A stretch of DNA of 64,000 nt from an uncultured Bacteroidales bacterium (GTDB taxonomy: Bacteria; Bacteroidota; Bacteroidia; Bacteroidales; Paludibacteraceae): NCBI GenBank assembly GCA_902771935.1, contig CACXYM010000006.1, positions 88,530 through 152,529 on the forward strand. Reading direction: 5' to 3'. A program made the translations under genes and the position numbers. Position 1 is the stretch's first letter. Every line of letters begins with the position of its first letter. Positions 5,772 through 50,365 of the stretch are shown piece by piece. The notes beneath the pieces are model-generated. The model was not told where the DNA came from. It did no database searches and saw only the letters and a list, made by a program, of their open reading frames with translations.

Positions 5772-8700
5772 ATGAGTATAGTATGTTTTAAAGAGTTTAA
5801 GGTACGAATTCTGTTGCTGATTTCAGTAGTGTTGTGCTCTGTTGGAGTGTGGGGGGTAGCCACGACTGATTTTGAACCGACCGCCGGTGGTCTGGTGGTA
5901 AATCTAAAACCGGGTGACCAGATTTTGCTATCCACCATGGTGAATGGCGAGGAATATTTCGTGTGCCATTACCCGGGTTATACGGGTGGCTATTTCGGTT
6001 ATACGAACTGGGATAGTGATAAAGGTAACTTCCTTAAGTTGATTCCGCAAGCCGCAAATGCTACAGAGCCGGCGTCTACTTCCATATGGAGTATTAGCGA
6101 CCCTGTAACGTTTAAGTTTGGTGGTAAAGAATATCCAGTAGATGGTATCGCCTATACGATGTGGAGTTCCAATCCAGGAGGCGATCCCTATACCTTGCTC
6201 GCAGGTTCCGGCACTTCGTACAAGTACTTAGGCGATTTGACCAGAGAAACAGACAATAATAACATCTTTAACGCGGTTTTTGTTGCGCCGACGAACCGCT
6301 CGTCCGTTATCTCGTTTGACCCGAATAGAACGTTAACAGCCAAAGAGGGAAGAACGGATCAAGATTCCGAAGGTCGTTTCAATGGCGAGAAAGGCTACGG
6401 TTTCTTGGGCTTACCTTATCGTGAAGTGTATTGGCTAGATATACCTCGAGGTAATGCTCCCGTATCTTACGTCAATGCTTCGGTGATCGGTTTCAACAAA
6501 ACGTTGAATACAATAAAATATAGTAGCAATGAGTCAGAGGCTAAACCGGGTCAGGCACTGTATGCTTTTGGTAATAAACCGAAACACCAACCTACCCCGC
6601 GTACGGTTTTCCGTTTGTATGTGCTGAATGATCCGTTGACTTCTACTTGCGCAGATTCCTATTATTTTGCCTACGACGAGCAGGATTATAAGCAATACAA
6701 TAAAGACTTTTCCAAAACGCCCGCTACGTACACCACTAAGAGGAAGACCTATACCATTGACCGCCTCGTCTGCATGGATAGTCTTCCGGGTACCAAGTAC
6801 TATGTAAGCGATTATATGAATGTGCCGGAGTCCGATAGTTCCTATTACTATGTGGGATATAAGAACAAGTATTGCCACAAGAGGGATGGTGATGCATTTG
6901 ACTCGCAGTTCAAGCAAATAGATAATTTGAAGATTCACTATCTGGGCCTCCCTGCACCACGAGGAGCGTACGGTCAGATGATGGTGGATACGACTAATAC
7001 CGACGAACAGAACCTCGGCGTGGAGTTCCAACCGGGCGGCTATTTCTTACGCACCAGCACCGGTCGTAACATCCAGTTGCGTCCGAGTGATGACTACAAG
7101 ACCTGGACGTGCGAGGAGATGTGGCATATCACGGCAGAGTGGGCTGCTCTGAGTATCAAAGCCACGATGTTCACCGGCTCCGAATACAGCGCCGAAGACC
7201 CGGGTGCGGATATTCCGGGCTGGAGTGTGATGGTACGTGGAACGGAAGTGCCGGTAGTTGGAGAACGTCCGATTGTTGATTGCGACGGTTGGGCACGTAT
7301 CCACATAGATGATGCCAGCCCGAACGGTGCTATCGAGTTCGTGCCTGCGAATCCGGATAGACATATTCATTACAGCAACAACGGCTGCGAAGGCGACACC
7401 ATCGCGGATCAGTACCCTATGTACGGCGAGACTTCCGTTACCGTCCGCGAGCCGCGTCTTGTCAAGGGATTTACGTTCCAAGGCTGGACAACGAATGCAG
7501 ATGGTACGGGTACCTTGTATAGTCCGGGTCAAGTGGTTGATTTGCCGACAGGTACGACCACGCTCTATGCGAAAGCTATTTATAACGGTACTATCCACGT
7601 AGCGCTCTCGTTTAAGAAAGCCGACGGGAAGCGTTACTTCCTGACCCACCCGGGTACAGCCTCACCGCGTTTCTCCCGTGCTCGTTATATAAAAGACTGG
7701 ACAAACGCATGGCAGGGTATGGCGAATGCTGAAAACGTGGATGAGAATTATATCAATACCTTTAAGGTGCTTACCCATCCGGATCCTTGTATGGAGTGTG
7801 CGACTAATGAAGTAGTGCTCGACCCACGACGCGAGATGCGTTATGGTGCCGTGGACTCTCTCCTCTTCTATGAGAACTTTGCTCCAACAGATGAAGAGTA
7901 CCTTGGTTTGTATTATGAAACTCCGAATACCATCTTAGCGAATAACTCATGGGCAGGTCTGTTCAAGTCGTCGGCAACGGGCGGACGAAACGGATGGCCG
8001 GACTATACCGTAGCGGATGTCAAAAATGCCAAAATATCCTCTACCCACTATTTGCATCGTGTGGGGGGCGTTATTACTCGCGATCCGCGCTCCAACAGCG
8101 ATGCACCGTGGGTTACCTACAACGCCGCTAACAACCAATTCGATGGTTCTGCTTCGGAAATTGACGCAACCGTTTTCCAGATTTCCCGTGTACGTGTTGC
8201 GGATGAGCATTATGTCGTTATCCCCGATACCACTACGGAGTGGACCGACGAGATAGTCTTTGGTATCCACGAAGACGAAAATATAGAGCAACCGGTGTGG
8301 TCCAAACTAATTGGTAAACAACTTATGGCTGTGACGAAGGTGGACGACGACACCGTTTATTTCCACCCGAACCCCAGCGAGAAAAAGATAATTACCGACT
8401 ATATGACGATGAGGCTCAATCCTAACTATCGTTTGGAGGAGACATTTGAATATATAAGGGATGCGCGCGTTGAGTCATTGGGAGAAGAGGTGCAGGATGT
8501 GGATAAACCCCACATGAACGACCGCTTGGAGAAAAACTACTTCGGTCGTCTTATTACCAGTGGTAAAAATACTCCGGTCGATGTGATTTATGAGGGTAAT
8601 TATATCGATATAGTGGATACCTTGCGTATCACTCTCCGTACCTTAGGTCCGGTGAAGATCAAAGAGTACTACGGTCGCTGGAAAAAAGGTGCTCCCGGTC

Positions 8701-11700
8701 TGCATTTTAATGCCGACGGATCACGCTATCGCGACATCATCGTGCGTACCAAGACGGTACACCATGGCGACATTGAGGTTAAGTTGAAACTTACGCCGGA
8801 GTATCCAACCTATAACTTCAGCCCGTTGGCTGACGCAAGTAAGCAACTGAACTTTACCCTCGCGAAAGTGAGATCACGCAAACTGCTTGATACCGATGGT
8901 AATGTGCTTGGTGAGGAAATCTTAGACTCTGAGGATGTTACTTCTGCCTTGCGATTAGGCCCGGGTTCTTGCTCTTTCACAAGCGGAAGACCTTCGGCAT
9001 ATTTCAATGTTGATAGCGTGCAAACCGTCCAAGCCCATGCGGTTCTCATCACCAAAGCGGATAACTCCTCCGGTGCGCGATATGATACACTGGTCATCAA
9101 TTCGACAGCAACAGTGGGTGGAATTGGATATCAGGTTACAGGTCGTGTACCGCTGATGCAAGCCGCATTAGCAACCAATGAACTGATTTGGTCTGCTGTA
9201 GCAAACGGACAACGTTATTTCATAATGGCAGGTTCCGGCGGACTCATCTTCCGTCAGTACCAAACCAAAGGTGGTGTGCTCTATAAGTATGAGGATGGTA
9301 AAACCCAACTGGTTAAAGGTGCTGCCAATGCTGCGAATAGTGATACCAAGTACATCACACCGTGGCTGTATGAGTATGTCGATCAAGCGCAGCAGCAGCT
9401 CACATTGAAAACGGATGCTCCTGTTAATTTGTATTTCGTTATCAACGGTTCGTCGCTTCCTGATGTGGGAAGTACCGGTGCGGCTACCCTCACCTACGAA
9501 TACGTGAATACATATATCAACGACAATGCCAACTTTGAGGAACAGGTGAAATTGAAGTATGGTACTGAAGATTGGCTGAAATTACAAGTTGTATCATCAA
9601 CTCCATCCCTGACTTTGACCAAAAACGAGTCAGAGGCCACTACTTTCTCTTGGACCTATCTGCAGCAGGAGTATAATCTTCTCAATAACGGAACCTATCC
9701 GAGTAAAGACCAATTAGAGTTCGGTTATAATAGCCTCTCCCCTCTCGATGTTCAGACGCGATATAAGGCTTACCGCATCTACTCGATGCTGCTCGATAAT
9801 TCGCTAACCTATTGCGGACAAGAGAATGAGGCCGACATTGCAGACTTGATTTCATCAGGAGGCGACTGGAAAACCAACTATGCCATCAACCTCGTTTCCG
9901 ATAGCCGCTTTAGTGCGGGTGCCAGTGGATTGAGTACGTCAACAAAAGAAAGTGAACTCAAAACGACCGTCACGCCTTCCGGCACCAGCCCAATCAACGT
10001 GCAGTACGGAGGCAAATATGTCAATATCGTGGATACACTCGATGTGCAGATTTCCTTGCAGTCGGGTGCACCTACATACCGCTTCAAAGACAAATGGAGC
10101 AGCTTTACCTCCGTGGATGATGCGCATCTTAAAATTCCGCTCATCCGTCGTACTTATCATACGGCACCATATGATTCGCTTGTATGTTATCCCGAGAGCG
10201 ATGAGTATTACTTCGTCTTCCCGCCTGAGGTGGAAGGCGAAACAGCATACCATACTTTCACCTTGCATACCGACCACCGAACAGGTACCAATACGTTGGA
10301 TGTGGATGGTAAGGTCGTCTCCTATGCCGGTGAGAGCCATGACCATACCGACCATATGCATCTCGATAATCCTTCTTACGCCGAGGTCCGTCTGATGGAT
10401 GCGAAAGGAAATACACCGGACTGGTGCGAGATTAGCGAATTGGGTGACAATACCATTAAAGTGCATTGTTTAGGCAATGGTATCCGTGCACCGCGTTCCG
10501 CAGACCTCTTCTTGGCTTATACCATGAATGTGGGTGGCAAGTGGCGCTATATCAACTTCCGCCTGCAGGTGATGCAATCCAGCCGATTCCAATACGGTAA
10601 TCAGAACCTTGTGCACTCCAAAGGTGCGTCGGGCGACGACCTGAAAGATGGCGTACAGCAGGTACACGAGAATAAGAATGTTCTCTACTACTACAATCCT
10701 TCGAATGCCGCGCAATCTACCGACCAACGTGTCGAGCTGCCTATCCGTGAGCGTAACTTCTATGGATGGTGGCGTTGGTATTCACTCCAGCCTGGCGAAG
10801 AAGATACCGATATCCCTGCCGAGAGATGGCAGACTGAACCATCCAATACGGGTAAATGGAACTTCCCGTTCCGTGTCATCGGTGACTCGGTGCCTGTAGA
10901 TCCGGAGGATCCTTCCAGCGGAAAGAAATTAGTGACCCAGGGACGCTATACGGTATTCCACGTGCCTTCGCAGGACTATAACGCTCGTAAAGACCCTCCG
11001 TCCAAGGCGCCGATGCTCTATCCGCCACGAGACAAAGCGGTTGAGACCTATGCGGTGGACCTCAGTGTCTATTACGACAACCTGCCGTTGTCCATGAAGG
11101 ATGTCAATCAAGTGGATACAGCTGTATTGGATACGATGACCAATATCATCGAGCCAACCCTCTCACTACGTGAGATATACGAACTCCACCCATGGACGGA
11201 GATGGCTGAAATCATGGAAGGATACAAGGATACTATTGCCTCCAGTTATCGGAATCAGAAGTATATGGAGGACCACGTCGTTCGCGCACCTCTGAATAAC
11301 CGTTTGCTCCTTACTACCGAGCAACGCTATAACTACGATAATGTCAAGAAAGGCCAACACTCAGAGTCCCTGCTCGGTTACTATATGCGTGACGATAACT
11401 GGGCGACATGGGCAGGAAATCCGATGCGCCAAGATACGATGATTTGGTGCGGCGGATGGGATGTTACCTGCGCATGGTACACCTATAATCCTAAAACGCA
11501 GACCTATGATACGTGTACCCATACTATTTGGGAGAGTAATGACTTCCTGAATGTGCCTAAGAAAACCTCTATAACCACCGGTAAGGAAAATGATACTATT
11601 ATATATTGTTTACGTGCGCGTAGCGTAAAATCTACCAATGTAGGTACACCTTCCGAGGTTAACGATCATGAGGGCGATTATTGGTTTAATATCTGTCGTT

Positions 11701-14700
11701 ATACGATTATCTACCACAGAACGGATAAATTTGGTCCGAAGTTGGAAAATGAGAAAGGTGTATCAATCATTACCAATGACGATATTGAACAGAACTTTGA
11801 GGTGTTGGAGCGTTTGAACTTCGACTATAATAAACCCGGAACGGACTATACCGTTTATCCGCACCCGCTACCGTGGGCGGATGCTTCCTACGGATTCGCC
11901 TATCCGAGAACAGCATCTCTGCCGGATAACCGTCCGCACAACGGTAAGCTCAACGAACCGGGTCTCAAGAACCTCGCGAATATGGGTGAGTATAACCTCA
12001 TCAACCGCATCCCATCCTTTGGTCAGTATTGGCATAAGATGGAGCAACATGGTGGTGCTGCCAACGGTTATATGATCTTCTGCGACGGTATGTCATCTGC
12101 CGGTCAGGTAGCTGCTTTGTCCCTCGAGTCCCACTTGTGCGAAGGACAGAAAATGTACTTCTCCGGATATGTGGCAAACCCAATGAACGAAAACGGAAAA
12201 ACATGTCCGAACTTCCTCTTCGCTGTACAAGGCTCAATGGATGGCCACAATTGGGAAGATATTACTTCTTACATAACGGGTGACCTCGCTCCATCCAATA
12301 AGTGGTACCAAATCTACTTCCCGATAGAGCAGAATAAGGAATACAATCACTTCCGCGTGCGCGTATTTAATATGGGTGCGGATGATAATGGTAACGACTT
12401 CCTCATTGACGATATGTGTATCTTCGCTACCAAACCGCCGTTGATGGTTTACCAAGCGAACACCACCTGTAAGAATGAGAACGAAAGCGACTCCCTTACC
12501 CACATCGTGCTCCGCGTCGACTATCAAGGATTTACAGAGGAAATATACAGCGAGTTAGACGAGGAATACTATACCGTTGTGGAAATGACGAAAGATAGTA
12601 TCTTTAGCTTCCTGGAATTAGAGGACGGATATTATAATCCGGGTATCAAACCGGCTGTAGCTCCCGATACGAAGGATACCATCTATGGTAAAATTAACCT
12701 GCCGAAACGTACTTATCATCCGGATGCTGCTGACTCCATCTTCCCGAACCTGCAAGAACTGATTCTTAAGTTTGAGCAGACTCTGGAGGAACACGAAAAG
12801 ACCCCATCTGTAAAAGTCTTCCGTAAAGGTTATGTCTATGAACACCTCGATGACTCTATTCGTCCTGTTCTCTACGTCGTCCATTCGGCTAAGATGTCTG
12901 CCAACAATTTGTACACCGTACACATGGCGGGTGCGTACGACCAATTATTGAGCAGTAAATGTGCTTTGACCCGTTCGCTCAAAGTACGAAATCGAATGAT
13001 TCTCACGCTTAACGGAGAGGAACAACCCGATAAGGAGGTCGGTGGCATGTGCGCCAATACAACCTACGATTTGTCACTCCACGTTAAAGGTACCCTGCTA
13101 CTCGATAGCGTAGCGCCGATTGAGGTTACCGGAACGTGTCACAACGATTGGCTGCTCTACGGCGATACGGCTGCCGCTTCCAGTAAAACGCGGTATGGTT
13201 ATTACTATAACGATATTGTGGCGGTCATTAAGGATATCCTTCGTGCCGATCCGTCGGCGGGTACCGCTATTTATGATAATCCGAACCATTTGGCACATTC
13301 CCTCGCTGAGGTGGATAAGGTTGTTATGAAGCGTGTGCAGGATGAGAATCACGTGGAACTCTCCGAAGATGTGCATCCGTACGATATTCTTGCCCATTTG
13401 GTAAATGGCGGATTCCTCACGCTCTATCAGTCCAACCTAACTGTTATCACTCCGGTCAAAGACTCGATACAATATACCATCTTCCCGATTCCGGGCTCCG
13501 GATCAGAAGTAATGCAAGACCTCAATATTGATGTCTGCCCGACACCGGTTCATATTAAACTGAAATCGAGCTCGGAACAAGGCATACCGTTGGTTATCGG
13601 TGGCTTAAATAGATCCGCAGAGGAGGCGCAACTCCCAATTACCGTCTTGGTTGATGCGCAGCACGCCAATTCGCAAATCGCTATACCTATCGACTCGTTG
13701 ATGATGTTCCCCGGAACGGACGGACCTAAGGTGGCGATAAAGCAAGTAAACTTCTTATCCACTAATGACCCCGATTATCGTGAGGGCGTCCATACGATTA
13801 CACTTGAGCCGGATAAAGCGTGGAATACAGGTGGTGAAAATACGGGCTATTACCAGAACGGAAACGATACGATCCTTCTTGTAGCGTCTTCCTCGAACAC
13901 CTACCTCATGCGCGAGGGATACAACTACACCTTCGGTATCGAGATGATGACGAATTTAGGTACATCCGATTGGGGTGGATCAGAGGACTGCCCGGTCGGT
14001 ACGATACCGTTTATTGTGAGCGTAGTACCGGATCACTTACGTTGGGCTCCGCAGAGTACCGAAAACAATAAGTGGAACGATGCCGATAACTGGATTGGTA
14101 TTAACCAACACAACGAAATCATCCATTCCGATGCTCGTTTCGTACCGCTGGCTTCTACTAAGGTCGTTATTCCTAAGATGGAGAATGGTCTGCCTTATCC
14201 GGAACTGCCGAACCTGGGTACCCTTACTCCGGCAGACTCTGTACAGAAGACAGGCTTCCAGTACAACCAGTGTAGCGATATTCGCTTCTTGCCGGGTGCT
14301 GCTATCGGACAACAGCAACGTCTCCAATACGAGAACGCGGTTGTCGATATGAGTATGCCGAACCAGAAGTGGGCACTCCGTGGTGCACCGGTAACCGGTT
14401 TGCTCAGTGGTGACTTGTTTATGGCGAACAGTGATCTTGAAGGTGCTACGCCGATGTGGGAAGTAGGTGAGTTCGACGCTAACGGACGTAGTTATAAAAC
14501 CGGTAACGCTTCCTTCTGGCTCTCTCTCTATGACCGCGAAGTTAAGCAAACGGGTAATAAGGATAATGTCAAAGACACTACCTATACCGCAAATGCAGAG
14601 TGGTCGAAAGTGACGAACGGAATGGACTATTCATTACCTCCTGCTCAAGGTTGGGCAGTTTATTCCCGCACACATACTGGCCACGCTGCAGATGTCAGAC

Positions 14701-15797
14701 TGCCTAAGAATGATGATATTTACTATTTCTACTATGCGAGTGGCGATAAGGCATTAGACTCGTACGTACCGGATCTGCGAGCTAAACGTAAAGATGAGGC
14801 TGGCGGTAAGGCAGGTGCCTTGGCATTCTATCCGGGTACTTCCGCTACCTTCCAAAAATACACGCTGACCAATGAGAAGCCTTCTGATGCGTTTGTATTT
14901 GCTAACCCGTCGATGGGATATATTGATATATGGGGATTCATCGCAGACAATGAGCTGGAACCAAAATTCGATTATATTGATGCAGATGGTAACTATACGC
15001 CGATAGTTAAGAAAACAGCGGAAGAAACAACGAACGTCATTACGCAACTGGAGCGCTATCTTCCGCCAATGCACGCTATAGTCGTATATGTTTCTCCTGC
15101 AGCAACCGAGAAAGAGGTGACATTGAATACCAGCCGTATTGTGACCTCGCCAACCCCAGTAGTTAGCCCCGCTCCGATGTACCGTACTGCGACGCCGCTG
15201 CGTAAAGGTCTGATGACCGTTACTGCCGTTAACCCCGTTTCGTCGCGTTGCAAATCACGACTCATACTCGGACAAGGCTATAACGCAGAGATAATCCCAG
15301 GTGAGGATGCTATGCTCACAACAGTCAATATCAGTAACTATACCAACAACTCCATGCCGGCTACGCCGTTCAATATCTACGCAGTGGAAGGCAATGAAGG
15401 TCTCAGTATTGACTTGCGTGACGAAATAGAGAATATTCCGATATCCTTCTGCATGAGCGACCTACCTTATGATGACGAAACGCAACTCTGGTTTACCGGT
15501 GTTAATAATATCAGCGGCTCATTGGTTCTGTTCGATTCGCTCACGATGACGGAACGACCGATTATGGACGGTATCTGCCTCAAGATTGAAACGCCTGTAA
15601 CGAGCCACGAGAAGCGGTATTATATCCGTCGTCATGGTGATTTGCCGGTTGAGCCTGTTGACCCGCCTATCGCAACTGATTATCAGACATATGGCATAGA
15701 CGAAATACTGCCTGTTTATAAGTTTATTAAAGACGGACATGTTTATATTTTGCGCGACGGACATGTCTATACGATATTTGGACAAAAGATTAGATGA
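5772..15797 (+). CDS. giant secreted surface protein (3341 residues)
   Basis: A signal peptide (RILLLISVVLCSVGVWG) is followed by a very long, Asp/Thr/Tyr-rich extracellular protein. Repeated features can be seen. A module opening G-x-x-Y-F (EYFVCHYPG ~58, RYFLTHPG ~618, RYFIMAGSGG ~1145) occurs three times. A module with Y-x-G-x-Y-[IV]-[DN]-I-V-D-T-L occurs at ~935 and ~1410. An InlB-type B repeat (FTFQGWTTNADGTGTLYSPG) lies at ~565-610. A W-N-D-A-D-N-W segment is near 2770. The last ~30 residues (DGHVYILRDGHVYTIFGQ) carry the C-terminal motif shared with five other secreted proteins here. Length and modules suggest an adhesin or cell-surface filament. The stop overlaps the next start, so it is translated together with a small membrane-anchored partner. 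Function is inferred only. Confidence 0.75.
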   Translation: MSIVCFKEFKVRILLLISVVLCSVGVWGVATTDFEPTAGGLVVNLKPGDQILLSTMVNGEEYFVCHYPGYTGGYFGYTNWDSDKGNFLKLIPQAANATEPASTSIWSISDPVTFKFGGKEYPVDGIAYTMWSSNPGGDPYTLLAGSGTSYKYLGDLTRETDNNNIFNAVFVAPTNRSSVISFDPNRTLTAKEGRTDQDSEGRFNGEKGYGFLGLPYREVYWLDIPRGNAPVSYVNASVIGFNKTLNTIKYSSNESEAKPGQALYAFGNKPKHQPTPRTVFRLYVLNDPLTSTCADSYYFAYDEQDYKQYNKDFSKTPATYTTKRKTYTIDRLVCMDSLPGTKYYVSDYMNVPESDSSYYYVGYKNKYCHKRDGDAFDSQFKQIDNLKIHYLGLPAPRGAYGQMMVDTTNTDEQNLGVEFQPGGYFLRTSTGRNIQLRPSDDYKTWTCEEMWHITAEWAALSIKATMFTGSEYSAEDPGADIPGWSVMVRGTEVPVVGERPIVDCDGWARIHIDDASPNGAIEFVPANPDRHIHYSNNGCEGDTIADQYPMYGETSVTVREPRLVKGFTFQGWTTNADGTGTLYSPGQVVDLPTGTTTLYAKAIYNGTIHVALSFKKADGKRYFLTHPGTASPRFSRARYIKDWTNAWQGMANAENVDENYINTFKVLTHPDPCMECATNEVVLDPRREMRYGAVDSLLFYENFAPTDEEYLGLYYETPNTILANNSWAGLFKSSATGGRNGWPDYTVADVKNAKISSTHYLHRVGGVITRDPRSNSDAPWVTYNAANNQFDGSASEIDATVFQISRVRVADEHYVVIPDTTTEWTDEIVFGIHEDENIEQPVWSKLIGKQLMAVTKVDDDTVYFHPNPSEKKIITDYMTMRLNPNYRLEETFEYIRDARVESLGEEVQDVDKPHMNDRLEKNYFGRLITSGKNTPVDVIYEGNYIDIVDTLRITLRTLGPVKIKEYYGRWKKGAPGLHFNADGSRYRDIIVRTKTVHHGDIEVKLKLTPEYPTYNFSPLADASKQLNFTLAKVRSRKLLDTDGNVLGEEILDSEDVTSALRLGPGSCSFTSGRPSAYFNVDSVQTVQAHAVLITKADNSSGARYDTLVINSTATVGGIGYQVTGRVPLMQAALATNELIWSAVANGQRYFIMAGSGGLIFRQYQTKGGVLYKYEDGKTQLVKGAANAANSDTKYITPWLYEYVDQAQQQLTLKTDAPVNLYFVINGSSLPDVGSTGAATLTYEYVNTYINDNANFEEQVKLKYGTEDWLKLQVVSSTPSLTLTKNESEATTFSWTYLQQEYNLLNNGTYPSKDQLEFGYNSLSPLDVQTRYKAYRIYSMLLDNSLTYCGQENEADIADLISSGGDWKTNYAINLVSDSRFSAGASGLSTSTKESELKTTVTPSGTSPINVQYGGKYVNIVDTLDVQISLQSGAPTYRFKDKWSSFTSVDDAHLKIPLIRRTYHTAPYDSLVCYPESDEYYFVFPPEVEGETAYHTFTLHTDHRTGTNTLDVDGKVVSYAGESHDHTDHMHLDNPSYAEVRLMDAKGNTPDWCEISELGDNTIKVHCLGNGIRAPRSADLFLAYTMNVGGKWRYINFRLQVMQSSRFQYGNQNLVHSKGASGDDLKDGVQQVHENKNVLYYYNPSNAAQSTDQRVELPIRERNFYGWWRWYSLQPGEEDTDIPAERWQTEPSNTGKWNFPFRVIGDSVPVDPEDPSSGKKLVTQGRYTVFHVPSQDYNARKDPPSKAPMLYPPRDKAVETYAVDLSVYYDNLPLSMKDVNQVDTAVLDTMTNIIEPTLSLREIYELHPWTEMAEIMEGYKDTIASSYRNQKYMEDHVVRAPLNNRLLLTTEQRYNYDNVKKGQHSESLLGYYMRDDNWATWAGNPMRQDTMIWCGGWDVTCAWYTYNPKTQTYDTCTHTIWESNDFLNVPKKTSITTGKENDTIIYCLRARSVKSTNVGTPSEVNDHEGDYWFNICRYTIIYHRTDKFGPKLENEKGVSIITNDDIEQNFEVLERLNFDYNKPGTDYTVYPHPLPWADASYGFAYPRTASLPDNRPHNGKLNEPGLKNLANMGEYNLINRIPSFGQYWHKMEQHGGAANGYMIFCDGMSSAGQVAALSLESHLCEGQKMYFSGYVANPMNENGKTCPNFLFAVQGSMDGHNWEDITSYITGDLAPSNKWYQIYFPIEQNKEYNHFRVRVFNMGADDNGNDFLIDDMCIFATKPPLMVYQANTTCKNENESDSLTHIVLRVDYQGFTEEIYSELDEEYYTVVEMTKDSIFSFLELEDGYYNPGIKPAVAPDTKDTIYGKINLPKRTYHPDAADSIFPNLQELILKFEQTLEEHEKTPSVKVFRKGYVYEHLDDSIRPVLYVVHSAKMSANNLYTVHMAGAYDQLLSSKCALTRSLKVRNRMILTLNGEEQPDKEVGGMCANTTYDLSLHVKGTLLLDSVAPIEVTGTCHNDWLLYGDTAAASSKTRYGYYYNDIVAVIKDILRADPSAGTAIYDNPNHLAHSLAEVDKVVMKRVQDENHVELSEDVHPYDILAHLVNGGFLTLYQSNLTVITPVKDSIQYTIFPIPGSGSEVMQDLNIDVCPTPVHIKLKSSSEQGIPLVIGGLNRSAEEAQLPITVLVDAQHANSQIAIPIDSLMMFPGTDGPKVAIKQVNFLSTNDPDYREGVHTITLEPDKAWNTGGENTGYYQNGNDTILLVASSSNTYLMREGYNYTFGIEMMTNLGTSDWGGSEDCPVGTIPFIVSVVPDHLRWAPQSTENNKWNDADNWIGINQHNEIIHSDARFVPLASTKVVIPKMENGLPYPELPNLGTLTPADSVQKTGFQYNQCSDIRFLPGAAIGQQQRLQYENAVVDMSMPNQKWALRGAPVTGLLSGDLFMANSDLEGATPMWEVGEFDANGRSYKTGNASFWLSLYDREVKQTGNKDNVKDTTYTANAEWSKVTNGMDYSLPPAQGWAVYSRTHTGHAADVRLPKNDDIYYFYYASGDKALDSYVPDLRAKRKDEAGGKAGALAFYPGTSATFQKYTLTNEKPSDAFVFANPSMGYIDIWGFIADNELEPKFDYIDADGNYTPIVKKTAEETTNVITQLERYLPPMHAIVVYVSPAATEKEVTLNTSRIVTSPTPVVSPAPMYRTATPLRKGLMTVTAVNPVSSRCKSRLILGQGYNAEIIPGEDAMLTTVNISNYTNNSMPATPFNIYAVEGNEGLSIDLRDEIENIPISFCMSDLPYDDETQLWFTGVNNISGSLVLFDSLTMTERPIMDGICLKIETPVTSHEKRYYIRRHGDLPVEPVDPPIATDYQTYGIDEILPVYKFIKDGHVYILRDGHVYTIFGQKIR

Positions 15798-16374: not shown

Positions 16375-16406
16375 TTTGCATATATGCAAACTTTGTAGTA
16401 TCTTTG
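16375..16406 (+). promoter_or_regulatory. dapB promoter with palindromic -33 region
   Basis: TTTG at 16375-16378 and TATCTTTG at 16399-16406 are 20 bases apart. The -33 box begins the perfect palindrome TTTGCATATATGCAAA (16375-16390), identical to that at 2914-2929. It drives the dapB-lepB-wbqC-ilvE group. Confidence 0.8.
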
Positions 16407-16438
16407 CGCGCCAATTGTGTGGTTATTATTTAAGCAGT

Positions 16439-17116
16439 ATGAAGATTGCATTAATCGGATACGGAAAGATGGGGCACATGATCGAACAGGTGGCGCTGCT
16501 GCGCGGGCATGAGATTGTGTGCACTATTGATATCGGTGACGAGGAGAAGTTCGAGAGCGCTACGTTCCGCTCCGCGGATGTAGCGATAGAGTTTACGACC
16601 CCACAAACCGCAGAAACGAACGTGCGCCGCGCTTGGGAACAAGGTGTGCCTGTCGTGTGCGGTACCACCGGGTGGGATGCGCAAGCGTTAATAGTCGAAA
16701 GTCGAAAGTCGAAAGTCGAAAGCGGAAAGGAGATGCTCATTTGGAGCAGTAACTTCTCCGTCGGAGTCAATATATTCTTTGAACTCAATAAATGGCTCGC
16801 AGAAGTGATTCGAAACTATCCCCAGTATCAGCCGCATATCTACGAGGAACACCATATCCACAAACTCGATAAACCTTCCGGTACGGCTAAGACGTTGCGG
16901 AATGATATATTGAGCGTGGCTGCGCCACTCAATGGTGACGCTTCGCTTAATGATGTACCAATCGAGTCGGTTCGCGAAGGAGAGATACCGGGTAACCACT
17001 CCGTCATTTGGGATAGCCCCGAAGATACAATTGTTATTTCCCATATGGCGAAAGGACGCGAGGGCTTCGCTTTAGGCGCTGTCCTTGCCGCCGAATCCCT
17101 AAACGCTAAACCCTAA
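16439..17116 (+). CDS. dapB: 4-hydroxy-tetrahydrodipicolinate reductase
   Basis: Catalyses NAD(P)H-dependent reduction in the lysine/diaminopimelate pathway (cytoplasm). 225 residues from the ATG at 16439; upstream codons in the frame belong to the leader. Motifs: GYGKMG (nucleotide binding, 8-13), CGTTGW (~76-81) and EEHHIHKLDKPSGTAK, holding the catalytic His and Lys. Two oddities come from short tandem repeats. GTCGAAAG units at 16694-16729 encode a basic loop (VESRKSKVESGK) where the family usually has a shorter segment. The gene also ends inside a CTAAACG repeat (17098-17127), giving ...AAESLNAKP and lacking the last ~15 residues normal for Bacteroidetes DapB. Whether the enzyme is fully active is open, though all core motifs are present. 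Confidence 0.93.
   Translation: MKIALIGYGKMGHMIEQVALLRGHEIVCTIDIGDEEKFESATFRSADVAIEFTTPQTAETNVRRAWEQGVPVVCGTTGWDAQALIVESRKSKVESGKEMLIWSSNFSVGVNIFFELNKWLAEVIRNYPQYQPHIYEEHHIHKLDKPSGTAKTLRNDILSVAAPLNGDASLNDVPIESVREGEIPGNHSVIWDSPEDTIVISHMAKGREGFALGAVLAAESLNAKP
16694..16729 (+). repeat. GTCGAAAG tandem repeat inside dapB
   Basis: Four GTCGAAAG-type units then GCGGAAAG, in frame within dapB, encoding alternating Glu/Ser/Arg/Lys residues. It shares at least 20 consecutive bases, including the variant unit, with the intergenic copy at 2845-2874 read on the other strand. Confidence 0.85.
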
Positions 17117-17127
17117 ACGCTAAACGA
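17098..17127 (+). repeat. CTAAACG-type tandem repeat at the dapB 3' end
   Basis: Units CTAAACG-CTAAACC-CTAAACG-CTAAACG run from the last codons of dapB through its stop codon to five bases before the lepB start. The repeat supplies the stop codon (TAA) of dapB. Confidence 0.8.
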
Positions 17128-17131
17128 ACAA

Positions 17132-18511
17132 ATGACTATTAGAGAACGATTACAGAAAGTAACCACCAAAGGGTGGATAGCAGCAGGGTGCTGGAGTGCA
17201 CTCTATATCGCGTTTATTATCTGGCTCGCATGGGACGACCCGAAGTCGCTCTGGTGGCTCTTGCTCCTGCCGGTGATAGCAGATATGTTTACTACCAAGT
17301 TCATCAACTGGAGTTGGTGGAAGAGGTATAAACCGGCTGGTAAAGATGAACCGGCTAACCCGCAAGCTAAACCGGTACTTTATACCATTTGCTCCTGGAT
17401 AGATGCTATCGTCTTCGCTCTCGTGGCGGTGTATTTCATTAACCTCTATATGTTCCAGAACTACCAGATTCCGTCTTCATCCTTGGAGAAGAGTCTGCGT
17501 GTAGGTGACTTCTTGTTCGTGAGCAAGATGAGTTACGGCGCTCGTGTGCCGAATACGCCATTGTCCATGCCTTTGATGCAACATAGTTGGCCTGCAGCGT
17601 TTGGCGGTGGAAAAAGTTATTGGGACAAACCGCATTGGGACTACAAACGTCTGCGCGGTTGGGATACACCGAAGAAAGGCGATATAGTCGTCTTTAATTT
17701 CCCTACGGGTGATACCGTGTGCCTGAAGATGCAGAACCCCGACTACTATACGCTATGCCACTATTATGGTAAGCAAGCCGTAGAATCGCGTAAGGATGTG
17801 TTTGGTGATATCGTAGTACGTCCGGTTGACAGACGTGAGAACTATGTCAAACGCTGTGTGGGAGAACCGGGAGACAGCCTGCGTGTAATCGATAATGTCG
17901 TTTACACGAAGTCGAAAGCGGAGTGGATAGAGGAACCCAATAGAGAGGGCGTTCAGCTGAACTATATTGTTCGTACGGACGGTCACTTACTCACACGCAC
18001 CTACTTGGATAAGTTAGGCGTGAGCCATGAAGACCAGCGCGTGTTGGAGCCGGGTATATATCATTTCCCGATGACGCAGGCAATGCGTGAGAGCTTGGCT
18101 AAGAATCCGCACGTGCTGTCGATTGAAGTCGAACCCGAAGTGGCAGGAGGTGACGTCTATCCGTTAGGCGCAACTACTTGGACACGCGATAACTATGGAC
18201 CGATTTATATTCCGCGCAAGGGCGACAAGATACTAATCACCGAGGATAATTATCCCATCTATCGCCGCATCGCACAAGCCTACGAGTTCAAGCCGATGAC
18301 GATTGGCGAAGAGTACGAGTTCGGTATGGACTATTATTGGATGCAAGGCGATAATCGACACAATAGTGCCGACAGCCGCTACTGGGGATTCGTGCCCGAA
18401 GATCATATCGTAGGACGACCTGTCTTTATCTGGCTCAGCATCGAGAAAGATAAACCTTGGTTCAAAGGACATATACGTTGGAACCGACTGGGAAAGAGTG
18501 CTTGGCGATGA
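17132..18511 (+). CDS. lepB: signal peptidase I (long Bacteroidetes form)
   Basis: Cleaves signal peptides of exported proteins at the inner membrane. 459 residues with N-terminal membrane segments (about 15-35, 40-60 and 85-108). The S26 motifs are: box B IPSSSLEKSL with the catalytic Ser at ~117; GDIVVFNFP; NYVKRCVGEPGD with the catalytic Lys at ~240; and the C-terminal GDNRHNSADSRYWGFVPED box. The distance between Ser and Lys is longer than in E. coli, as expected for Bacteroidetes. It starts 15 bases after dapB and its stop overlaps the wbqC-like start (ATGA). The dapB-lepB-wbqC order matches what is usual in Bacteroidales. Confidence 0.93.
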   Translation: MTIRERLQKVTTKGWIAAGCWSALYIAFIIWLAWDDPKSLWWLLLLPVIADMFTTKFINWSWWKRYKPAGKDEPANPQAKPVLYTICSWIDAIVFALVAVYFINLYMFQNYQIPSSSLEKSLRVGDFLFVSKMSYGARVPNTPLSMPLMQHSWPAAFGGGKSYWDKPHWDYKRLRGWDTPKKGDIVVFNFPTGDTVCLKMQNPDYYTLCHYYGKQAVESRKDVFGDIVVRPVDRRENYVKRCVGEPGDSLRVIDNVVYTKSKAEWIEEPNREGVQLNYIVRTDGHLLTRTYLDKLGVSHEDQRVLEPGIYHFPMTQAMRESLAKNPHVLSIEVEPEVAGGDVYPLGATTWTRDNYGPIYIPRKGDKILITEDNYPIYRRIAQAYEFKPMTIGEEYEFGMDYYWMQGDNRHNSADSRYWGFVPEDHIVGRPVFIWLSIEKDKPWFKGHIRWNRLGKSAWR

Positions 18512-19019: not shown

Positions 19020-20081
19020 ATGAATATAAACTGGAGTGCATTAGGATTTCATTACACAGAGCCGGACTATATTGTTCGGGCAGCTTGTCATGACGGTGTA
19101 TGGGAACAACCCTATGCCACTAAGGACAAGTATCTGCATTTACACGTTAGCGCGACGTGCATCCAATACGGCCAAGAGGCTTTTGAAGGCTTGAAAGCCT
19201 TCCGTGGAGTAGATGGTAAGATTCGTATCTTCCGTTGGCAGGAGAATGCCAAACGCCTGCAACGCAGTGCCGAGGCGTTATACATGGCGCCACCACCTAC
19301 AGACTTATTTGGCGATGCCATTCGATTGGCTTTAAGCAAGAACCTGCGGTTTGTGCCACCGTACGAGACGGGAGCAACGCTTTATTTCCGTCCGCTACTG
19401 ATTGGTACAACGCCGCGATTAGGCGTCGGACCGGGTAGGGATTTTGAACTCATCATCATCCCGTCACCTATCGGTCCGTACTATCCCGGTAAGTTCCACT
19501 GCACGTCATTTATCGTCAATCGGCATGTGGACCGCGCGGCTCCTCAAGGAACAGGACAATACAAAGTGGGCGGTAACTACGCCGCATCTTTCCGTGGCAC
19601 CGAAACGGCGCACGCGCAAGGATACGACTGCTTATTCACCGATGCCAAGACGCATAAGTATATTGACGAATGCAGCGCCGCGAACTTTATAGGGATAAGG
19701 GAGTCGAAAGTCGAAAGCAAAATTGAGTACCTGACGCCGAGAAGCAGTGCTATTCTGCCGTCTATCACCAACGACAGCCTGATGAAGTTAGCCCGTAAGA
19801 TGGGAATGAAGGTGATACGCAGACATATTCCTGTAGAGGAGTTGGCAACATTCAGCGAGGCTGCGGCTTGTGGCACAGCCTGCGTGCTTTCACCTATAGA
19901 TAAGGTGGTGGACCCCGATAAGAATGTCATATACCATATCAGCGACGAACCCGGACCGATTATCACCAAGTTATACCACGCGCTGCAAGATATCCAATAC
20001 GGCCGCGTGAGAGATACATACCACTGGTGCGAGGTGTTTGAAACTACAAACCACAAACTGCAGACTACAAACCACAAATAA
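19020..20081 (+). CDS. ilvE: branched-chain amino acid aminotransferase
   Basis: PLP-dependent class IV aminotransferase that makes Leu, Ile and Val from their keto acids. ATG at 19020 (MNINWSALGF) is preferred over an in-frame TTG at 19014; 353 residues. Motifs: YGQEAFEGLKAFR, TLYFRPLLIGT, QYKVGGNYA with the PLP-binding Lys at ~182, and ECSAANFIGI. Two parts look derived from short tandem repeats. GTCGAAAG units (19703-19718) encode RESKVESKIEYLTP, about five residues longer than the GI-K/R-D-x-x-Y-x-TP usual in this family. The C-terminus [13 protein letters not shown] is translated from an ACTACAAACCACAA repeat and is not a conserved family ending. Confidence 0.92.
   Translation: MNINWSALGFHYTEPDYIVRAACHDGVWEQPYATKDKYLHLHVSATCIQYGQEAFEGLKAFRGVDGKIRIFRWQENAKRLQRSAEALYMAPPPTDLFGDAIRLALSKNLRFVPPYETGATLYFRPLLIGTTPRLGVGPGRDFELIIIPSPIGPYYPGKFHCTSFIVNRHVDRAAPQGTGQYKVGGNYAASFRGTETAHAQGYDCLFTDAKTHKYIDECSAANFIGIRESKVESKIEYLTPRSSAILPSITNDSLMKLARKMGMKVIRRHIPVEELATFSEAAACGTACVLSPIDKVVDPDKNVIYHISDEPGPIITKLYHALQDIQYGRVRDTYHWCEVFETTNHKLQTTNHK
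19703..19718 (+). repeat. GTCGAAAG repeat inside ilvE
   Basis: Two GTCGAAAG units in frame, encoding ESKVES, in the surface loop after the SAANFIGI motif. Same unit as in dapB and at 2845-2874. Confidence 0.75.
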
Positions 20082-21675: not shown

Positions 21676-22287
21676 ATGAAAAACGAACTGATTCAATTAG
21701 CCGAATATCTCGAGGCGCTTGAAGCACGTATTGCTGATTTGGAGCAGCGCTATGACATCTTGATGCAACGTAGCGCCGAAGCTGAGGAAAATAAAGCGCA
21801 AGCTCAGTTACTGAGCACCCTTCAAGATCAAGTGGCGCAGAATACCACCAAACTCAATGTGTTAGGCGCTGCTTTGGCGGAAGTGAACGCACGCTTGGAC
21901 GACGAGCTGGAGTTGGAGGACGAAGAAATGGTTAATCCAGTCGTGGAGGAGAAACAGCAAGTCTTTGTTGCTCCCGAACCCGAACCGGAACCGGAACCAG
22001 CGCCTACGCCTGCACCAAAACCCGAACCCAAACCGGCTCCCGCTAAACCCGTGGGCAAACGGATTGAAGACCTCAAACAAGGTATATCCTTGGGTGACCG
22101 GTTCTTGTTCCAGCGCGAACTCTTTGGCCAGAACGGCGAACTGATGCAAAAGACCTTGGAAGAGCTCAATAAGCAAGCGGACTTCGATGCTGCAGTCAAT
22201 TATCTGGATCGCAAGTTCCCTGCTTGGGACAAAGAGAGTCCTACGTACGAGTTGTTTATTAACGTCTTACACCGCCGCTTCGGATAA
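21676..22287 (+). CDS. coiled-coil protein with Pro/Glu linker, conserved in Bacteroidales
   Basis: 203 residues. An N-terminal coiled coil (about 1-80, LEALEARIADLEQRY) is followed by an acidic stretch, a Glu-Pro/Ala-Pro/Lys-Pro linker (about 98-126), and a folded C-terminal domain with SLGDRFLFQRELFGQNGELM and WDKESPTYELFINVLHRRFG. The last domain is the conserved part. Its function is unknown to me. No signal peptide, so cytoplasmic. Lies between the transporter and rsmI, with the stop codon inside an ATAACCC repeat. Confidence 0.75.
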   Translation: MKNELIQLAEYLEALEARIADLEQRYDILMQRSAEAEENKAQAQLLSTLQDQVAQNTTKLNVLGAALAEVNARLDDELELEDEEMVNPVVEEKQQVFVAPEPEPEPEPAPTPAPKPEPKPAPAKPVGKRIEDLKQGISLGDRFLFQRELFGQNGELMQKTLEELNKQADFDAAVNYLDRKFPAWDKESPTYELFINVLHRRFG

Positions 22288-22318
22288 CCCATAACCCGTA
22301 CCCCATAACCCATAACCT
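22284..22318 (+). repeat. ATAACCC tandem repeat before rsmI
   Basis: Imperfect units ATAACCC-ATAACCC-GTACCCC-ATAACCC-ATAACCT fill the whole spacer from the previous stop codon to the rsmI ATG. The reverse complement (GGGTTATGG/GGGTTACGG) resembles a stretch inside truA at 28503-28533. Confidence 0.85.
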
Positions 22319-25005: not shown

Positions 25006-25052
25006 AAACCACAAACTACAAACTACAAACCAAAAACTACAAATTACAAATA
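25004..25052 (+). repeat. ACTACAAACCACAA-type repeat before the FKBP gene
   Basis: AAACTACAAACTACAAACCAAAA-like units fill the spacer between ribE and the FKBP gene, starting within the ribE stop codon. The unit is the same as at the 3' end of ilvE. Confidence 0.8.
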
Positions 25053-49371: not shown

Positions 49372-50340
49372 ATGAAAAAACTGACTATCATCCTATGTGC
49401 GGCGTGCTTTGTACTCACTTCGTGCGCGAAGAGCGAATGGCAATTAGTCTGGTCTGATGAGTTTGACGAACCGACACTCAATACCGCCTATTGGAACACG
49501 GAGGATAACGCCCGTGGAGGTGGTAATGCCGAGTTGCAATATTACACGCCTAATAATATCTCTATTGAGCACCATCCTGTTACCAATGACCAATGTCTGG
49601 TCCTCAAAGCGCAGAGGGAGAACTATCGTAATCGTCCCTGCACCTCCGCGCGGCTGAATACCCAAAATAAAGTAACTGTTGAGTACGGTAAAGTGGAAGC
49701 ACGCATTGCGTTCCCCTATACAGCAAATGGTTTGTGGCCTGCTTTCTGGATGTTAGGTAATAATCTGGCTACCAATCTGGGTAACAATGATGATGTCGAT
49801 AAAAAGAAAGCAGAACTGGCAAAGCAAGGACGTGTCGTTTGGCCCAAGTGCGGCGAGATAGACATCTGCGAAATGGGACATCACTACGGCATTGAGCACG
49901 GTGTCCAAGACCGCTATTTCAATGGCGCGTGCCACTGGGGTGAATCATTTAATAACGGCGCATATCCCAACTTCGGCCAATTTACTACTGCCGAATATCC
50001 TGTCCAAGGGGATTTCCATCTTTTCACACTCATTTGGACAGAAGATTCTATCGCAATGTACCTCGACCAAGACATCTATCCCGATGTTCTTCCGTATTTT
50101 CAACTCTCTTTGCGAGACAAGGAAATCAATGCGCCTGGACACTATTTCAATCACCCCTTCTACATCGTACTCAATCTGTCAGTTGGAGGCTTTTTCCCCA
50201 ATATGCCGGCAGCTGAGAAATATCCGGAACTTATCACTTCCGACGACCCGTCCTTCCAGCGCGTGACAGCACTTCCCACAGACGGAACACCGGTCAAAAT
50301 GTACGTCGATTACATTCGCGTTTATAAGAAAAACAGATAA
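49372..50340 (+). CDS. GH16 beta-glucanase lipoprotein
   Basis: 322 residues. Lipoprotein Cys in CFVLTSC. GH16 core: WQLVWSDEFDEPTLNTAYWN, GNAELQYYTPNNI, LWPAFWMLGNN, catalytic GEIDICEMG (Glu 162, Asp 164, Glu 167; the middle residue before the last Glu is Cys instead of the common Ile/Val). An insertion of about 25 residues with many Lys/Asp lies just before the active site (DDVDKKKAELAKQGR). Ends with MYVDYIRVYKK. Paralogue of the enzyme encoded directly upstream. A short AACTGAT repeat fills the spacer to the next gene. Confidence 0.92.
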   Translation: MKKLTIILCAACFVLTSCAKSEWQLVWSDEFDEPTLNTAYWNTEDNARGGGNAELQYYTPNNISIEHHPVTNDQCLVLKAQRENYRNRPCTSARLNTQNKVTVEYGKVEARIAFPYTANGLWPAFWMLGNNLATNLGNNDDVDKKKAELAKQGRVVWPKCGEIDICEMGHHYGIEHGVQDRYFNGACHWGESFNNGAYPNFGQFTTAEYPVQGDFHLFTLIWTEDSIAMYLDQDIYPDVLPYFQLSLRDKEINAPGHYFNHPFYIVLNLSVGGFFPNMPAAEKYPELITSDDPSFQRVTALPTDGTPVKMYVDYIRVYKKNR

Positions 50341-50365
50341 CTGATAACTGAACACTGATTACTCT

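Follow-up and report, generated by a model that had tools for sequence, protein, structure and literature searches.

In the genome of an uncultured Bacteroidales bacterium of the family Paludibacteraceae, which belongs to a group of gut bacteria, dispersed seven-base tandem repeats have probably colonised sites that tolerate insertions, including variable turns of core enzymes. The window, the stretch of 64,000 nucleotides that was analysed, belongs to an assembly of 2,056,016 bases (G000), which is about 95% complete. The gene dapB (16439-17116, plus strand) encodes 4-hydroxy-tetrahydrodipicolinate reductase, as assigned by the Pfam domains DapB_N and DapB_C, and carries a perfect, in-frame array of 4.3 GTCGAAA units (16693-16722, plus strand), which reads VESRKSKVES. 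The variant unit CGGAAAG closes the array on the same strand (16723-16729), resulting in a repeat of 37 bp in total (16693-16729). The same 37-bp stretch, including the variant end, is found at G000:C6:55972-56008, where it runs antisense in an unrelated gene for a membrane protein. A further GTCGAAA array with the same variant unit lies on the minus strand (2845-2875), outside any recognised gene; the original prediction that it shares at least 20 bases with dapB was borne out, as the complement of 2853-2875 is identical to 16707-16729 over 23 bases, variant unit included. The array is missing from DapB of the sister species G166, relative to which the dapB insert adds 21 bp, in line with the claim that the protein is longer than its relatives. 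Two other features of this part of the window were recorded. A promoter-like element, TTTGCATATATGCAAA...GCAGTA.TTTTGCG, occurs at 2914-2950 and 16380-16415, and pieces of it rank among the commonest 16-mers of the G000 sample; we take it to be a likely Bacteroidales promoter. An unusually large open frame of 3341 amino acids spans positions 5772 to 15797.

The repeat unit has a length of 7 bp and reads GTCGAAA, or AGTCGAA and AAAGTCG in other phases. The 8-bp unit that had been claimed was wrong and was rejected, as tandem GTCGAAAG yielded no match in the window with up to two mismatches allowed. Periodicity was assessed in 462,530 bases, consisting of the window and 20 further stretches of G000 (398,530 bases), several of which were chosen on contigs with known matches, so that the density of arrays may be somewhat high. 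In this sample, 39 runs of at least nine matches were counted at lag 7, against 4.5 on average for two second-order Markov sequences, and 11, 7 and 6 runs at lags 8, 9 and 10; the multiples of seven, lags 14 and 21, gave 34 and 40 runs, and a second excess was seen at lags 11 and 22 with 40 and 27 runs. The sample contains 75 lag-7 arrays with 47 distinct units, among which AAAGTCG, equivalent to GTCGAAA, accounts for 16 arrays and the next best unit for four. In the whole of G000, the 14-mer GTCGAAAGTCGAAA has 45 overlapping matches, which group into 25 clusters, while the reversed control has none; the genome-wide search proposed earlier thus reveals a repeat that is dispersed over 25 sites. 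Isolated single copies of GTCGAAA are present at the level expected by chance (58 observed versus 59.3 expected over 444,000 bases), which means that only clustered copies are in excess, and the idea that single copies are mobile was rejected for this lack of enrichment. As a separate observation, lag 11 in general shows a strong excess, the 40 runs of this kind comparing with 2.5, and so do 11-bp tandem arrays of the GGTGATTAAAA type, which are present in the G000 stretches L095, L096, L098, L107, L110 and L112.

The second enzyme named in the original prediction, the branched-chain aminotransferase IlvE (ilvE, 19020-20081, plus strand; Pfam Aminotran_4), indeed contains a two-unit GTCGAAA array in frame (19702-19717, plus strand) and exceeds its relative in G166 in length, the insert adding 18 bp. 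The turn in question reads RESKVESKIE in the window's genome and RGNE in G166, whose IlvE is 84% identical and has the bare turn GIRGNEYL; the PDB homologues 4dqn and 3uyy also have a shorter turn. The dapB and ilvE inserts are both absent from G166, which dates them as recent. When two PDB homologues each were aligned with DapB and IlvE, gaps of 3-5 residues appeared at the repeat sites. The placement of the repeats in loops is based on these PDB sequence alignments and on what is known of the fold; a single-sequence AlphaFold model of IlvE reached a mean pLDDT of 33.4 and was not used. It is very improbable that the segments are ancestral protein sequence or the product of low-complexity drift in variable loops, with a merely coincidental likeness of the DNA. 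The variable length of the IlvE turn across the genus and of the DapB stretch among the loci compared would suit such an origin; however, non-homologous sites are identical at the DNA level, the empty sites in G166 contradict it, the aligned PDB homologues have gaps, and none of the sisters and PDB homologues compared carries the residues in question.

The IlvE turn was surveyed in 101 genomes drawn evenly from a larger genus, and an IlvE match is present in 92 of them. It could be read in 84 of 93 loci (those of the 92 matching genomes and of G087), with the lengths in G143 and G115 set by eye to 14 and 4 residues. The turn comprises four residues in 28 of the 84 genus members, 7-9 residues in 15 and 10-40 residues in 41. 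The nine unread loci consist of one contig end, one short turn and seven divergent aminotransferases, six of which are visible far enough to recognise short turns. Sorting by eye assigned GTCGAAA-type repeats to 11 of the 84 turns; further turns carry other heptamers or palindromic pieces (PTPTPSLKGRE, SADGQPCGE and TDRCADRVQ types), and long turns often show repeats of several kinds, though not in every case. In G157, G114 and G153 (L076-L078), the turns span 33-40 residues and contain repeats that have no relation to GTCGAAA, being palindromic or of the ACAGCGAAGCGATCT type. GTCGAAA tends to be more abundant genome-wide in species whose turns are of the GTCGAAA type, but this association is fragile. 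With kinship ignored throughout, the median number of genome-wide matches was 30 in the 11 species sorted by eye versus 1 in the other 81 (p=0.001), the comparison of 10 species whose turns contain exact GTCGAAAG with 82 others gave p=0.005, a one-mismatch flag that marks 15 turns gave p=0.04, and the same flag without the sisters G159 and G167 (13 turns) gave p=0.10. The sorting by eye had left out four flagged turns (G125, G135, G171 and G198) as other repeats. Two species are counter-examples: G194 has a GTCGAAA-type turn in a genome without any perfect pair, and G122, with 67 GTCGAAA matches, has a turn of another kind.

Ten of the 25 clusters of G000 lie in frame inside nine genes, and one more overlaps a gene end; the remaining clusters are located outside genes as judged by open frames, among them C32:15442, which was counted as outside because an open frame covers it only with an early start codon. 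Six hosts are named by Pfam, namely GltX (two sites), Dxs, an Asp/Glu racemase (MurI), an aromatic amino-acid lyase, DapB and IlvE, and the others, a putative TonB receptor, a lipoprotein and an MMPL-type membrane protein, were named by reading their sequences alone. The encoded peptide is VESRKSK in nine of the ten coding clusters and FRLSTFD in the remaining one, which lies in the membrane protein. The essentiality of the host genes is carried over from other bacteria. All insert lengths that were measured are multiples of three (18, 69, 54, 39, 39 and 21 bp), which agrees with the earlier expectation for positions inside genes, and the notion of a repeat that spreads into conserved genes without breaking them is upheld by its in-frame presence in nine genes together with the 37-bp stretch at unrelated sites. 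Comparison with relatives revealed different states of the same site. In MurI of G166, which is 97% identical, the site consists of one lone AGTCGAAAG; the window's genome is 54 bp longer at this point, and its insert again ends in GTCGAAAG. The first GltX site is filled in the window's genome, G167, G159 and G127 and empty in G175; the second is filled only in the window's genome among the five genomes compared.

A similar situation is found in the lepB-like signal peptidase gene (17132-18511, plus strand), the name of which derives from reading its sequence, and which is supported as a gene by an open reading frame and an alignment. In the window, lepB carries a single, uninterrupted AGTCGAAAG without extra length (17910-17918, plus strand). 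In G159, a 39-bp insert with a hairpin cassette follows directly 3' of this unit, in G167 a 39-bp insert of other heptamers is located directly 5' of it, and lepB of G166 lacks the GTCGAAA unit. Assessed at the level of sequence, these comparisons show the inserts in dapB, ilvE, gltX and murI of G000 and in lepB and dxs of the sisters to be recent and in frame. A lone pre-existing unit was seen at two of the six sites compared, lepB and murI, and at neither dapB and ilvE nor the two gltX sites; the proposal that every insertion is seeded by a pre-existing unit was rejected on these grounds. A MITE is marked by terminal inverted repeats and a target-site duplication. The inserts here abut direct GTCGAAA-like units, a casual inspection revealed no terminal inverted repeats, and a heptamer at the junction is indistinguishable from such a duplication.

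The core of the cassette, GGGCACTCCGATAAAT (16 bp), is present once in G000, seven times in G159, twice in G167 and once in G193, with no copy in the other 26 of the 30 genomes searched. The fuller cassette, GTGCCTACGGGCACTCCGATAAAT, has 24 bp, or 32 bp together with one unit, and its predicted structure is a 5-bp hairpin closed by a TACG loop. In-frame copies are found in IlvE of G167 and in Dxs and LepB of G159, each time between GTCGAAA-like units, and LepB of G159 reads the cassette in another reading frame. MurI of the window's genome contains only the 16-bp core, which is in frame, is separated from the preceding unit by nine other bases and ends at a GTCGAAA-like unit. Further copies are present in an open frame of G167 between GTCGAGA-type units, in an open frame of G193 with a unit on the left side only, and in apparently intergenic stretches of G159.

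REP and REPIN elements are short hairpin repeats with a RAYT (Y1) transposase, and a REP-associated Y1 enzyme or another transposase might move the cassette, with the heptamers as hitch-hikers or as the target site. This explanation is quite unlikely. The predicted 5-bp hairpin with its TACG loop fits it, and Y1_Tnp matches were obtained in 12 of 25 GTCGAAA-rich genomes versus 17 of 76 others (p=0.02, kinship ignored); yet G000 itself, about 95% complete, has no match at E<=0.001, no more than 24 of the 29 genomes with a match reach the family cut-off, and a Y1 transposase was rejected as the mover in view of the weak association within the genus and the zero matches in G000. The copies of the cassette also differ from the extragenic REP and REPIN elements in that they lie in frame beside heptamers. 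A reverse transcriptase was likewise rejected as the source: one match was found in G000, but the distribution over 5 of 25 and 19 of 76 genomes shows no association.

Heptamers other than GTCGAAA contribute to the turnover among the sister species. When G000, G166, G167 and G159 were compared over the 18.2-29.2 kb region of the window, 23 indel blocks emerged in which the lengths differ by 6 bp or more. Seven of these blocks are periodic at lag 7 (five of them also at lag 14) and one at lag 6, while none of the 23 is periodic at lags 4, 5 or 8-13; under random placement, 7% were periodic at lag 7. Seven further blocks were found among G000, G166 and G167 in the first 1.9 kb of the alignment, where the start of G159 is missing. 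Different heptamers often occupy the same site across the sisters, as seen at the gene ends of lepB and ilvE and in the 25.0-kb gap. An array of CTAAACG/CTAAACC heptamers extends over the dapB stop codon (17097-17126, plus strand) and is also present in G166; in G167 (L073), ATAGATG heptamers interspersed with the hairpins GTGCCTTCGGCA, GCGGTAAACCGC and GCGCTAAAGCGC occupy about 170 bp over the end of dapB and the following gap, and such composites of heptamers and hairpins may be a general pattern. CAAACTA/CAAACCA heptamers form the C-terminus of IlvE (20041-20078, plus strand), where G167 has TTTTAGA-type heptamers. Two arrays on the plus strand are intergenic: ATAACCC heptamers (22284-22317) constitute a 32-bp insert that is absent from G166, G167 and G159, and AAACTAC heptamers (25006-25050) are replaced by other heptamers in G167. 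The assumption that every heptamer disperses was rejected, as CAGCTGT, the heptamer of the IlvE turn of G163, occurs in 5 of 101 genomes with one match each.

These patterns could be explained by local replication slippage alone, in which the polymerase favours 7-bp slips, chance heptamers expand in place, selection retains those that fall in loops and no copying between sites takes place. Slippage of this kind was hypothesised by Mrazek et al. in 2007, as reported in the accessible part of PMC4679880. The favoured lag of 7, the 47 distinct units among the 75 arrays, the differing heptamers at orthologous sites of the sisters, the isolated units at chance level and the likewise occurring reversed-control heptamers of other genera are all consistent with it. 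Against it stand the dominance of one unit, with 16 arrays compared to four for the next, the identical 37-bp stretch with its variant end in two unrelated genes, and the non-periodic hairpin cassette common to unrelated genes, and we regard slippage alone as possible, though rather doubtful.

Two tandem GTCGAAA units are present in 60 of the 101 genomes of the genus, and the reversed control was matched in 7 of 101 with one or two matches each. At the family level, two units occur in 7 of 96 genomes versus 6 of 96 for the reversed control, and at the phylum level, three units occur in 8 of 394 versus 4 of 394. Outside the genus, GTCGAAA is therefore hardly above its reversed control, and the idea of a special word across phyla is unsupported, as the control is nearly equal there. 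A scan of public genomes, which covered GTCGAAA as the sole heptamer, found at least four units in at least 117 stretches, 80 of which are titled among the matches listed. The matches listed include Paludibacteraceae and other Bacteroidales, Flavobacterium, Saprospiraceae, a Hydrococcus cyanobacterium, Phycisphaerae, Planctomycetaceae, Patescibacteria and others. Among these listed matches, 54 of 124 arrays are situated well within open frames of 120 codons or more, and 40 of the 54 read VESRKSK and 14 FRLSTFD (p=0.0005, with the arrays treated as independent though a few loci look near-duplicate). A family scan of public hosts comprised 18 proteins from 16 loci; four of the proteins have no family at 1e-10. 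Among the hosts recognised are a class I tRNA synthetase (I/L/M/V group) from Patescibacteria, a synthetase that bears a leucyl editing domain, a 3-dehydroquinate synthase, an FBPase and a tRNA_Me_trans protein, presumably a tRNA thiolation enzyme of the MnmA type; in a public Dxs, the array is located at a site that seems to match the one in the window's genome. An artefact of assembling or binning metagenomes is extremely improbable as the origin of the arrays. Most titled records among the matches listed are metagenome-assembled genomes, and the public contigs L119 and L143 begin in a GTCGAAA array, which suggests that longer arrays break assemblies; however, the arrays are about 30 bp long, the frames remain open, the inserts recur in many separate genomes, and named strains, for example Flavobacterium hercynium DSM 18292, are also listed.

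On balance, the observations favour heptamer arrays that grow by slippage and are copied between sites, with selection keeping insertions that are in frame and hydrophilic; the process most likely combines slippage with heptamer-anchored copying. The cassette at unrelated sites and the 37-bp stretch with its variant end in two genes point to copying beyond local slippage, so that copying between sites appears well supported, and anchoring in heptamers is less so, its basis being two loci (lepB and murI) and the boundaries of the cassette. A heptamer would arise by chance or remain from earlier repeats and would then serve as a short homology or template-switch anchor, via which a longer array or a cassette could be copied in from elsewhere. 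Units would subsequently be gained, lost and exchanged through slippage, and selection would purge frameshifting inserts and those that interfere with the fold. Since 7 and 3 have no common factor, the three frames of a strand all translate a heptamer array without stops into the same cyclic peptide, here VESRKSK, and a GTCGAAA array therefore brings no stop codon whatever its phase. The hydrophilic strand, VESRKSK, is retained more frequently than FRLSTFD, both in G000 (9 of 10) and in the public genomes (40 of 54 among the matches listed). Several points speak against this combination of slippage and anchored copying: the lone units at lepB and murI could be excision scars, a pre-existing single unit was seen at just two of the six sites compared, and the cassette has a unit on one side only in G193 and nine other bases between unit and core in MurI of G000. 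The fragile association with the IlvE turn, the isolated GTCGAAA copies at chance level, the lack of dispersal of CAGCTGT and the near-control frequency of GTCGAAA outside the genus count against it as well. A more far-reaching proposal, which we hold to be unlikely, sees GTCGAAA as a docking word, where templated copying writes the heptamer, and in one clade the heptamer-bounded cassette, and recurs in several phyla; homology-seeded template switching or a telomerase-like synthesis on a short template might be responsible. Its chances are lowered by the reversed control, which is nearly as frequent outside the genus. If true, GTCGAAA would be a minimal mobile element of 7-32 bp, and its frame-indifferent coding would permit a life inside core genes.

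Several known repeats resemble the arrays described here. The heptamer repeats of Calothrix and Nostoc go by the name STRR, and cyanobacteria have small dispersed repeats that are very small, look mobile, bear hairpins and lie among heptamer repeats; the likeness to the latter is one of description, and the phylum differs. Heptanucleotide simple sequence repeats are described for Calothrix and Nostoc, for Xanthomonas (GGGAATC) and for Beggiatoaceae (TAACTGA) in the accessible parts of PMC4692102 and PMC4679880, according to which the total occurrences of TAACTGA and its repeats are uncorrelated. As far as these excerpts go, GTCGAAA shares with the known repeats the 7-bp unit, a tandem arrangement beyond chance, many sites per genome and a patchy scatter over unrelated taxa and phyla. 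The reports, in the parts seen, stress intergenic arrays, with G-rich heptamers under-represented in coding regions (PMC4692102); of the 25 GTCGAAA clusters, 10 lie in frame inside genes and one overlaps a gene end, the others being outside genes as judged by open frames, and a hairpin cassette is shared between arrays. Just over two tandem units of TAACTGA, in another phase, are also present in the window (50336-50351). Rickettsia palindromic elements are, in the excerpt of PMC2229807, dispersed elements of 105-146 bp that lie in frame in conserved enzymes and are tolerated by the protein. GTCGAAA repeats are likewise in frame inside conserved genes and differ from the elements as excerpted there in that they consist of 7-bp units in tandem, to which a 24-bp hairpin piece (32 bp with one unit) may be added, and have their junctions at heptamers. 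In the one open-access library searched, neither a heptamer invasion of core enzymes nor cassettes bounded by heptamers were found, and a search by the letters of the repeat returned a chance PCR primer and nothing else. Heptamer repeats and in-frame invasion by repeats are known separately, and their combination with a shared cassette appears to be new.

The empty, single-unit and filled alleles in sister species make insertion, copying and tolerance directly testable. They also indicate a route along which repeats can turn into stretches of peptide within core enzymes, as in DapB, IlvE, GltX, MurI and Dxs, and the same route is visible in other records in the class I tRNA synthetase of the I/L/M/V group, the putative tRNA thiolation enzyme and the 3-dehydroquinate synthase.
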